In this document: one piece after another, positions 1-22,556 of the stretch
Layout of the letters: each line of letters opens with the position of its first letter
How positions within the stretch are numbered: position 1 is the first letter of the stretch
Source of the DNA: Alphaproteobacteria bacterium
GTDB taxonomy: Bacteria > Pseudomonadota > Alphaproteobacteria > Rhizobiales > NORP267
Assembly: GCA_028599125.1 (NCBI GenBank)
Contig: JAQRMX010000071.1
Location: 1-32,193, forward strand
Length of the DNA stretch: 32,193 nt
Direction of reading: 5' to 3'
The notes under the pieces: model-generated
Databases searched by the model: none
Told to the model about the DNA's origin: nothing
The model's input: the letters and a program-made list of their open reading frames with translations, nothing else
Position numbers and translations under genes: made by a program

Positions 1-648
1 AGTAACGCAAGCCTGTTTGGTGCTGTTCGGGCTGAATAGTTTAGAGTTTTGGCTGGTTATCAGGAAACTCTCCTGGTTCCGGGGGGTCACACCAAAGGGC
101 GTATAGGCCCCACGCGTAACAAGGCGAGTTACCTGATCACCTGCAAAAACTCTCAACTTTTCAGCCAGACGAGCACCAATCAGGATTCCTTTCCTTGAAT
201 CGAACCCCTCTGATGTCCCCTGTCGAATACTGCCGGTAATAAATGTTATTTTTTGCATATCTGGAGGTGTCAGGCCACGCACAAGAACTCCGACGGCCTG
301 ACCATTTTTTGATGCCATAGCCGCATTTTCAATAAATGGAAACGCAAGCCTCACCCCTTCAACAGTCATAATGCGCTGGCGCATCAACTCCGATTCAGAA
401 AAATTATGGCTGAGAGAATGGGCAACAATATGACCGTTAAACCCCAGAAATTTATCCATTAATTCCTTACGAAAACCGTTCATTACAGCAAGAACAACAA
501 TCATTGTCGCAACACCAACTGCGATCCCCAAGAACGAAAATCCAGCGATTACAGAGATAAAACCGTCTTTCCGCTGGGAACGCAAATAGCGCAGCGCTAA
601 AATCCACTCAAAGTTAGAAAAATATCTTAGCGTGTGTTTTTTGCTCAT
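1..648 (-). CDS. lolC: LolC/LolE-type lipoprotein-releasing ABC transporter permease, 3' part cut by window edge
   Basis: Inner-membrane permease of the LolCDE system, which extracts lipoproteins from the inner membrane and passes them to LolA. Seen: the protein opens [20 protein letters not shown], the typical amphipathic start with the ALRYLRSQR motif, then a hydrophobic span at about residues 30-55 ([20 protein letters not shown]), then a periplasmic region containing [11 protein letters not shown]. About 216 codons are visible and the rest lies beyond position 1. The ATG overlaps the proS stop codon (ATGA), implying translational coupling; proS-lolC adjacency is usual in alphaproteobacteria. 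LolC and LolE cannot be told apart from this part. The last 25 or so residues before the edge do not resemble the family's usual GMYEYD region, so a divergent or damaged segment there is possible. Confidence 0.85.
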
Positions 649-1973
649 CTCCCATGTACCAGTTTATTGATAGCAGATTCAGGTGACAATAACTCAATAG
701 CTCCAGTTAAACGATGTTTGAATTCTACCAGATTTGAAGAAAGACCATTTGGTCCTACAATAAGTTGCCAGGGAAGCCCTATTAAATCCATGTTTTTGAA
801 CTTGGAACCAGCACGTTCGCCCGTATCATCATAGAGAACCTCAATGCCGGTGGAAAGACATTGCGCATACAGGCGTTCACAGAGAGAATCTACCCCTGTA
901 TCCCCCTGTTTCAGATTGATGATACCCACATGAAAGGGAGCAACGGACTCCGGCCAGATAATTCCTGATTCATCATGGAATACCTCAATAATTGCTCCAA
1001 TCAAACGTGATATACCAATACCATAAGACCCCATCTGTAACGGTACTTGTCCCTTTTCACGGGTTTGTAAAAATGCCCTCATCGGCTCAGAATATTTTGA
1101 CCCGAAATAAAAAATATGGCCGACCTCAATGCCCCTTGCGGTAAGACGATGGTCAGGAGAAACTTCAGATTCAAACTGATACGGATCATGCTTCTCCTCC
1201 GTTGCGGCATATTTTCCAGTCCATGCTTTTGCTAATTCTTCCAGATCTTCTCTTTCATAGTCAATATTGTCCCCCGGTATTGACTGCCCAATGAGGGCCT
1301 TATCACAAAAAATAGAACTTTCACCTGTATTCGCAAGAACAAGGAATTCATGGCTCAGATCTCCGCCGATGGGACCTGTATCGGCAATCATTGGTATGGC
1401 TTTGAGACCAAAAGAAGAAAATATCCGCAGATAAGCAATGAATTGACGATAATAAGAGCGACGTGCCCCTGCCACATCATAATCAAAAGAATAGGCGTCT
1501 TTCATCAGGAACTCCCGCCCCCTCATGACACCAAAACGTGGACGCAATTCATCACGAAATTTCCATTGAATGTGGTAGAGACGCTTAGGGACATCACGAT
1601 AAGATCGGGCTGTTGCCTTGAAGAGGTTCGTTATCATTTCTTCATTCGTCGGACCATACAGCATTTCGTTCTGATGTCTGTCCTGTATGCGTAACATCTC
1701 CTTTCCATAATCATCATAGCGTCCACTAAAACGCCATAAATCCGCGGGCTGGATAGTTGGCATAAGCATTTCAACAAATCCTGCGCGATCCTGCTCCCTG
1801 CGCACGATTATTTCAATTTTTTTCAAAACACTGTAGCCAAGCGGAAGCCAGGAATAAATGCCGGCAGACTCTTGTCGAATCATACCTGCTCGTAACATAA
1901 GACGATGGGAAGCAATTTCAGCTTCTTTAGGAACTTCTTTTAACGTCGGCAAAAAATAGCGAGATAAACGCAT
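645..1973 (-). CDS. proS: Prolyl-tRNA synthetase, short alphaproteobacterial type
   Basis: Class II aminoacyl-tRNA synthetase that charges tRNA-Pro in the cytoplasm. Seen in the 442-residue product: motif 2 ([17 protein letters not shown], about residues 139-155), motif 3 (GIGISR, about 318-323) and a C-terminal anticodon-binding domain starting near [11 protein letters not shown]. There is no room for the roughly 180-residue INS editing domain of the E. coli enzyme, which fits the short ProS class of alphaproteobacteria. The frame is open 19 codons further upstream, but [15 protein letters not shown] is the usual N terminus and GGTGG lies just before this ATG, so 1973 is chosen. The stop overlaps the lolC start. 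A promoter candidate lies about 190 bp upstream. Confidence 0.95.
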
Positions 1974-2238: not shown

Positions 2239-2266
2239 TTGATAATATTTATCAAAAATGTATAAT
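2239..2266 (+). promoter_or_regulatory. Sigma-70-like promoter candidate, plus strand
   Basis: TTGATA (2239-2244), a 16-bp spacer, then a perfect TATAAT (2261-2266), with TG directly before the -10 box. Initiation would fall near 2273. It is divergent from the proS promoter candidate 43 bp away. No protein gene follows on this strand, but an intrinsic terminator does about 170 bp later, which is why the element is noted. Confidence 0.4.
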
Positions 2267-2272
2267 AAAAAA

Positions 2273-2466
2273 ATAGGTTCTTCATAAATGTAGTGACAAA
2301 TATAGAAATACGGATTATTGTTCCTTTGGCTTGGTGGATTTTCTCTGCAGGCTATCGGTTCAGCCACTGATAAGTGAAGGTCCGAGTCTAGAGGGGAAAA
2401 CAAAGAAAAATAAATTAAAAAAATAATAAAACGGGATTCGGCGAGGCATCAGGCCTCGCTTTTTTC
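2273..2466 (+). ncRNA. Candidate small RNA, about 190 nt, unknown family
   Basis: Inferred from a promoter candidate just upstream and a strong intrinsic terminator at the end; both are plus strand, where no gene is otherwise present. Within it, CUAUCGGU (2352-2359) can pair with ACUGAUAAG (2366-2374), with one bulge and a six-base loop. Flanking UUUUCUCU (2339-2346) can pair, with G-U pairs, with AGGGGAAAA (2392-2400) to close a larger stem. A 25-codon GTG-started frame (2293-2370) with the hydrophobic core IRIIVPLAWWIFSAGY also exists but lacks a good ribosome binding site. I do not recognise 6S, SRP, RNase P, tmRNA or a known riboswitch. The transcript would converge on the DUF1467 gene. 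Confidence 0.3.
2440..2466 (+). terminator. Intrinsic terminator, plus strand
   Basis: A perfect 7-bp GC-rich stem, GCGAGGC (2441-2447) with GCCTCGC (2453-2459), and the five-base loop ATCAG, followed at once by a run of six T. On the minus strand no T run follows directly, so the element is directional and points away from proS. It has no annotated gene to terminate. Confidence 0.8.
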
Positions 2467-20063: not shown

Positions 20064-20140
<77 letters not shown>

Positions 20141-22086: not shown

Positions 22087-22148
22087 GAGACGACTCCTCC
22101 CCTTCGGGGTAAGACTGGATTCGACAGAAAACCACCTATGTGGATCAT
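22083..22148 (-). CDS. Possible 21-residue leader ORF between hfq and hflX
   Basis: A short frame coding [21 protein letters not shown]. Its ATG overlaps the hfq stop as ATGA and has a very strong AGGAGG 7 nt upstream; its TGA overlaps the proposed hflX TTG start as TTGA. It is out of frame with hflX. It could be a true coupling or leader peptide, or the original hflX start after a frameshift. I recognise no function. Confidence 0.25.
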
Positions 22149-22411
22149 TTTTGCTCCTCCTTATCCTCCTCCTCCTGCGTTTCATTATCAAACAAATGCA
22201 AAGGTTGGCTGGGCATGATCGTTGAAATCGCATGCTTGTAAATCAACTGCGAACAACCATCACGACGCAACAGGATGCAAAAAGTGTCAAACCAGCTCAC
22301 ACAGCCCTGAAGTTTCACACCGTTCACCAAAAAAACGGTCAGAGATACCTTATTTTTGCGGACGTAATTTAAAAAAACATCTTGCAAATTCTGAGTTTTT
22401 TCTGAAGGCAT
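22145..22411 (-). CDS. hfq: RNA chaperone Hfq
   Basis: Hexameric Sm-like RNA-binding protein that promotes pairing of small RNAs with mRNAs. Seen: [15 protein letters not shown] and [13 protein letters not shown]-type Sm1 (here [19 protein letters not shown]), then Sm2 with [13 protein letters not shown], 88 residues in all. The tail after the Sm fold is strongly acidic ([14 protein letters not shown]), encoded by a GAG-rich run that also serves as ribosome binding sequence for what follows. [10 protein letters not shown] at 22411 matches the family start; an ATG at 22477 would add 22 unrelated residues. The 145-bp gap to trkH contains a TATAAT (22546-22541, minus strand) that could give hfq its own promoter. 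Confidence 0.96.
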
Positions 22412-22556
22412 GCTAAGAAAGAACCTTTCATCTACTGTGACAGTTTCATCCCGGATAAGAAATGACGCTACCTTCATCTCCCCGATTGATCACTCTTTTA
22501 ATGTTCACAACCACAAACAACAAAAAATAAAGCTTTATTCATTATATCAACATTTT

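Follow-up and report, generated by a model that had tools for sequence, protein, structure and literature searches.

The small RNA alpha-r9 of S. meliloti, which was found in 2007 and has been described as sra32, SmrC9 and sm12 and later as SmelC289, adjoins proS and is transcribed divergently from it (PMC2245857, PMC2573895, PMC3927594). The accessible parts of these reports make this placement a rule for the family (PMC3927594, PMC2573895). The RNA was detected on Northern blots at about 132–165 nt (PMC2245857, PMC2573895, PMC3927594, PMC2780559, PMC7143759), its 5' end was mapped and its promoter reads gaTGAC-n17-CTA.AT (PMC2245857, PMC2573895). Its targets are only predicted in the literature examined, where pairing with the leaders of fliM and smc01800 was proposed in 2007 (PMC2245857, accessible part).

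MmgR, the alpha-r8 RNA that Rfam lists as suhB (RF00519), limits polyhydroxybutyrate storage according to the accessible portion of the literature. In Caulobacter, the sRNA CrfA pairs on Hfq with the alpha-r8 seed of SisA–D, lowers SisA and frees the SisA targets; its site lies in a G/A-rich stem-loop and it is induced by carbon starvation (PMC12559287, accessible part). The same 2025 paper states, in the text available, that no direct base-pairing by MmgR had been identified (PMC12559287). A search of the literature, with most subscription papers outside it, returned no text that links alpha-r9 with MmgR.

The window considered here is the whole stretch of 32,193 bp that was analysed, from a genome of 1,433,589 bases (84 contigs, 99.8% complete). 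The gap between proS (minus strand, approximately 645–1973) and a DUF1467 gene (minus strand, 2605–2874) holds a plus-strand unit that is well supported as an sRNA gene that has a promoter and a terminator of its own. The promoter proposed in the original prediction, TTGATA-16-TATAAT (2239–2266, plus strand), is present, matches the consensus at 11 of 12 positions and is the top promoter-like site of the window; when the proS–DUF1467 gap was simulated as 500 Markov copies, 0.8% of them reached a best match of at least 11 on one strand. However, it is not the conserved one: it was not seen in the relatives and scores at most −6.1 against the promoter matrix made from them. The site conserved in relatives is instead GTGACA-17-TATTGT (2293–2321, plus strand), which ranks first among 64,330 positions with that matrix, made, like the core matrix, with the window left out. 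The relatives carry [GA]TGACA-17-TANNNT upstream of a conserved core, and the distance from the −35 box to this core is 86 in the window, compared with 85–90 in four same-family loci. The 2239–2266 site is perhaps a second, upstream promoter, or has arisen by chance.

Transcription likely starts at about 2328–2331 from the 2293–2321 promoter. To place this start, the spacing was read from the best RF02343 match (L150), where the 11 initial bases at the mapped sra32 5' end recur and 9 bases separate them from the −10 box; applied to the window, this offset leads to an RNA of approximately 139 nt (2328–2466, plus strand). The transcription unit that had been predicted here stands, but the start and the length of about 190 nt given to its RNA are probably wrong, about 139 nt being better supported. 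The predicted sRNA comprises the core GGTCCGAGTCTAGAGGGGAAAA (2379–2400), a stretch rich in A (2401–2432) that appears single-stranded from its sequence and from the fold of 2328–2466 and is a possible candidate Hfq site, and a strong, one-way intrinsic terminator, GGCGAGGC-ATCAG-GCCTCGCT TTTTTC (2440–2466). The directional terminator that had been noted is confirmed, with a stem (2440–2460) of 8 pairs, 6 of them G-C, followed by a T-run. In line with the protein gene noted as lacking, the plus strand here holds no long frame and only one notable frame of approximately 24 codons, which starts with GTG at 2293. The suggestion of a folded RNA fared less well: the predicted fold of 2273–2466 is unexceptional (z −1.58; 12 of 200 shuffles as good). 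An Hfq-like protein recognised by eye is encoded in the window (22145–22477), and a partnership with Hfq, previously thought plausible, gains from the co-precipitation of the S. meliloti homologue SmrC9 with tagged Hfq (PMC2848018, accessible part).

Positions 2293–2466 constitute an orthologue of the alpha-r9 sRNA gene (Rfam ar9, RF02343). The unit (2293–2466, plus strand) adjoins proS (645–1973, minus strand) and diverges from it, and the TGAC-n17-TA promoter at conserved spacing, the core and the terminator are all found. It shares with sra32 the proS-divergent placement, the [AG]TGACA-type promoter, a GGYCYRAGUCUNGGGAGGA-like core, A- or U-rich flanks, the terminator and a length within the published 132–165 nt. 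It differs in that the window core has TAGAGGGGAA for TNGGGAGGAA and in that the window and its same-family relatives lack the greater part of the GGCGC...GACGCG segment that many other alpha-r9 RNAs have; in the window, an A-rich stretch takes its place.

The five same-family genomes compared (2.8–3.8 Mb) and many others, all of them distant relatives with proS at most 71% identical, preserve the gene order rnj – DUF1467 – gap – proS – lolC. All five same-family gaps carry a shared motif on the same strand (e.g. GGCCCAAGTCGAGGGAGGAG, GGCTCAGGTTTAGGGAGGGC), then a terminator of the window's type. The conservation on which the original prediction depended thus holds for the terminator and for a promoter, although not for the promoter that it had chosen. 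Within the window, no other of 64,348 positions scores as high as the core at 2379 (21.2; next 11.0). On the strand antisense to proS and within 1.5 kb upstream of it, a core was found in 35 of 80 named proS loci and was absent in 45; each of the 35 outscores every one of the 80 sense-strand controls, in a test where each locus id was kept out of its own matrix while a few copies under other ids (L114 for L032) stayed in. Among Bradyrhizobium, the proS loci L055, L057–L061, L063, L066, L067, L073, L090 and L097 showed no core within 1.5 kb upstream.

Besides the unit itself, a DNA search of 2273–2466 in 101 genomes returned short matches only, the best of which (E 3.1e-5) covers approximately 40 bases of the A-rich stretch and the next (E 0.0086) the terminator. 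The Rfam scan of the unit gave no family at cut-off. In the window as a whole, a tRNA gene (20067–20140, minus strand) is the sole Rfam match to exceed its cut-off. In a permissive scan of 2000–2620, the lowest E belonged to RF02343, ar9, which we take to be Rfam's name for the SmrC9 family, as is consistent with the present results (24.1 bits, below the gathering score of 45 bits; E 0.11, mainly on the terminator). As regards the 5' stem-loop and the long-range stem of the ar9 consensus, the alignment deletes most of the middle of the model and retains only terminator pairs. With its score below the gathering cut-off, the unit is treated as orthologous to the gene but outside RF02343 in its curated form. 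At E ≤0.1, 89 of the order's 249 genomes have an RF02343 match, which in 37 of the 89 is over cut-off; at E 0.1, the model matches none of the six genomes of the window's family, though each carries the proS-side RNA. In two genomes (G047 and G086) for which proS was also at hand, the RF02343 match adjoins it.

A wider covariance model, R1, was made from 30 other sequences, namely 30 of 34 listed proS-side and ar9 references, from core to terminator and with the window left out; L106, with no recognised terminator, was excluded from the alignments. R1 finds 2371–2467 at E 1.7e-6 (32.0 bits) when the window is searched, and this match is the best in the whole genome (E 7.5e-5). The original prediction had recognised no family, which agrees with the lack of an Rfam family at cut-off, but the combination of synteny and R1 does lead to alpha-r9. 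In the order-wide alignment, 7 of 13 predicted pairs change on both sides, all of them in the terminator, where 7 of 8 pairs do so; RNAalifold gives support only for the terminator and for a short hairpin within the core, and inspection showed 5' pairing with the core in some relatives. Cores resembling alpha-r9 are also present at three loci (L317, L318 and L323) from Parvibaculum, Azospirillum and an unclassified alphaproteobacterium, with no Rfam match over cut-off; the family may extend beyond Rhizobiales.

The second R1 match in the genome (G000:C9:11009–11127, 28.0 bits) lies on the antisense strand of suhB/MmgR, which RF00519 recognises at 71.4 bits (gene at G000:C9:10984–11058, minus strand). 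MmgR and alpha-r9 are separate genes in separate places that share sequence in the opposite sense, MmgR being the complementary partner, recognised by the alpha-r9 model on its antisense strand. At 18 R1-match loci scanned with Rfam (of 30 fetched) from 20 named genomes, suhB overlaps on the opposite strand in 9, one is ar9 itself and 8 have neither over cut-off. As R1 matches antisense MmgR, the sequence of the alpha-r9 core amounts to the reverse complement of the MmgR seed together with the bases that follow it.

This complementarity of the core to the alpha-r8 seed is found within the window's own genome. There, UUUCCUCCCUAGACUUGGGCC of MmgR faces GGYCYRAGUCUNGGGAGGAA of alpha-r9, and the core and the seed pair at 17 of 18 ungapped positions (G-U counted). 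Their best duplex (−35.7 kcal/mol, with runs of 13 and 7 pairs) is the best of 12,862 tiles covering both strands of the window, the next independent tile reaching −33.2; 1 of 1,000 shuffled seeds did as well. Co-folding of the two RNAs gains 17.0 kcal/mol; UUUCCUCCC of MmgR is predicted to be open and the alpha-r9 core of the window to be mostly paired within its own RNA.

The pairing was then compared across 55 genomes for which both RNAs were fetched, MmgR being recovered through RF00519 alone and represented by one copy per genome, where many have several. The energies of the cognate duplexes lie between −17.9 and −50.3 kcal/mol. When each of the 24 families was represented by a single genome, the mean was −37.7 for same-genome duplexes and −36.2 after the partners were permuted, and 10 of 10,000 permutations did equally well; this test kept the weak suhB matches of G005, G007 and G047, which are probably or partly another RNA, and had G009 and G014 (alpha-r9 sequence missing from the set) and G106 (no suhB match) outside it. 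Ungapped, the representatives of the 24 families pair at 373 of 432 positions, with the firmest pairing in the first 13. These pair counts show no same-genome preference (5,480, 2,060 and 2,020 of 10,000 permutations as good), because most columns are nearly invariant, and a T-T mismatch occupies one column in 27 of 41 distinct pairs. Few changes affect both sides: C-G to T-A in G029 (core GGTTT, seed AAAC), A-T to G-C in G003 and G004 (core CAGG, seed CCTG) and again A-T to G-C one column further on in G236. Given these few changes and the lack of preference in pair counts, the co-variation between core and seed is suggestive, not proven.

Across 61 genomes, the word AAGTCNNGGGAGGAA was counted 67 times, with 44 of the genomes carrying it, compared with a single occurrence of the reversed control word; at least 31 of the 67 lie inside suhB matches (two of them weak) and at least 8 inside alpha-r9 genes (one, in G056, assigned by its place beside proS). 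R1 matches 257 of 297 genomes at E 1, a count that is inflated by the matches to antisense MmgR and was used neither as a distribution nor as a measure of co-occurrence, the losses clustering in one family. In the genomes of family f4 (0.9–1.6 Mb), suhB is absent in 10 of 12 and weak in 2, and none of the 12 is in the list of R1 matches. The genome of the window, which is also reduced, keeps both RNAs. Weak suhB matches at L268, L269, L270 and L271 (G005, G007, G014 and G047) resemble another conserved RNA, GGCUCCUGUC...UUUGACGCCUCCCUGUUAACU (G047 variant), which has its own CCUCCCU stretch and terminator.

Such complementarity might also be obtained if the alpha-r9 orthologue regulated mRNAs directly by antisense pairing, in which case the match to MmgR would be a by-product of its Shine-Dalgarno-like GGAGG. 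The MmgR seed is anti-Shine-Dalgarno-like according to the accessible part of the Caulobacter paper (PMC12559287), so that GGGAGGA would pair with any such seed, and both the predicted sra32 targets fliM and smc01800 (PMC2245857, accessible part) and the lack of cognate preference in the pair counts are in keeping with direct action on mRNAs. However, the complementarity extends past GGGAGG through AGUCU and often further, which a mimic of a ribosome site would not need, and the second R1 matches fall on antisense MmgR. Direct regulation of mRNAs as the explanation of the match is therefore considered unlikely, while deserving serious weight.

Explanations that deny the relationship to alpha-r9 survive less well. 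An unrelated sRNA made from the 2239 promoter could be invoked from the 11 of 12 consensus match of that site and from the lack of an Rfam match over cut-off, but synteny, core, promoter spacing and the covariance model make it very improbable. The unit was also considered as a diverged form of the missing 6S RNA, because this genome shows no RF00013 match at E ≤1 whereas all 11 other genomes searched have one over cut-off. This identity was rejected as barely credible: RF00013 is absent among the 9 matches obtained up to E 10 over 2000–2620, the 6S RNAs of relatives that were inspected share by eye none of the core of the unit, and same-family genomes carry 6S as well as the proS-side RNA. 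The 6S gene of this genome has been lost, has diverged or lies in an assembly gap. A small membrane peptide encoded by the GTG frame of approximately 24 codons at 2293, an open frame that ends in RIIVPLAWWIFSAGYRFSH, was rejected as the least credible reading of all, since its start codon falls on the conserved −35 box, upstream of where the RNA likely begins, it stops before the core is reached and no ribosome site was seen by eye.

The preferred reading, to which we assign a probability of approximately 0.7, is a joint one, in which the unit is an alpha-r9 orthologue and also a sponge of MmgR through core–seed pairing. More generally, alpha-r9 is rather probably dedicated to sponging alpha-r8 (MmgR) in Rhizobiales, and perhaps in neighbouring orders too. 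The two would form a conserved sRNA/anti-sRNA pair in which pairing covers the seed and in many genomes extends towards the MmgR terminator arm, and whose partners are kept together even in a 1.4-Mb genome. CrfA of Caulobacter crescentus provides the precedent: like the alpha-r9 core, its G/A-rich site is complementary to the alpha-r8 seed UUUCCUCCCU, and it is bound by Hfq, as is SmrC9, a likeness drawn from the published description, in its accessible part, and not from the CrfA sequence. The one Caulobacteraceae genome searched (G297) gave a weak R1 match (E 0.07).

By analogy, alpha-r9 would be the Rhizobiales sponge of MmgR and would act on it as CrfA acts on SisA, according to the following model. 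The alpha-r9 RNA would be transcribed from the 2293–2321 promoter, divergently from proS. In the cell, its core (2379–2400) would base-pair with the seed of MmgR, probably on Hfq. Once its seed is occupied, MmgR could not block its mRNA targets and, with more alpha-r9, the MmgR regulon would be released. The gene, its promoter and terminator and the complementarity of core and seed are the demonstrated parts of this model; transcription in this organism, formation of the duplex in cells, the loss of MmgR activity and the inducing signal are inferred.

The window exposes the limits of the Rfam ar9 model. If the sponge pair is real, the feast-famine switch of Caulobacter would have a counterpart in Rhizobiales.
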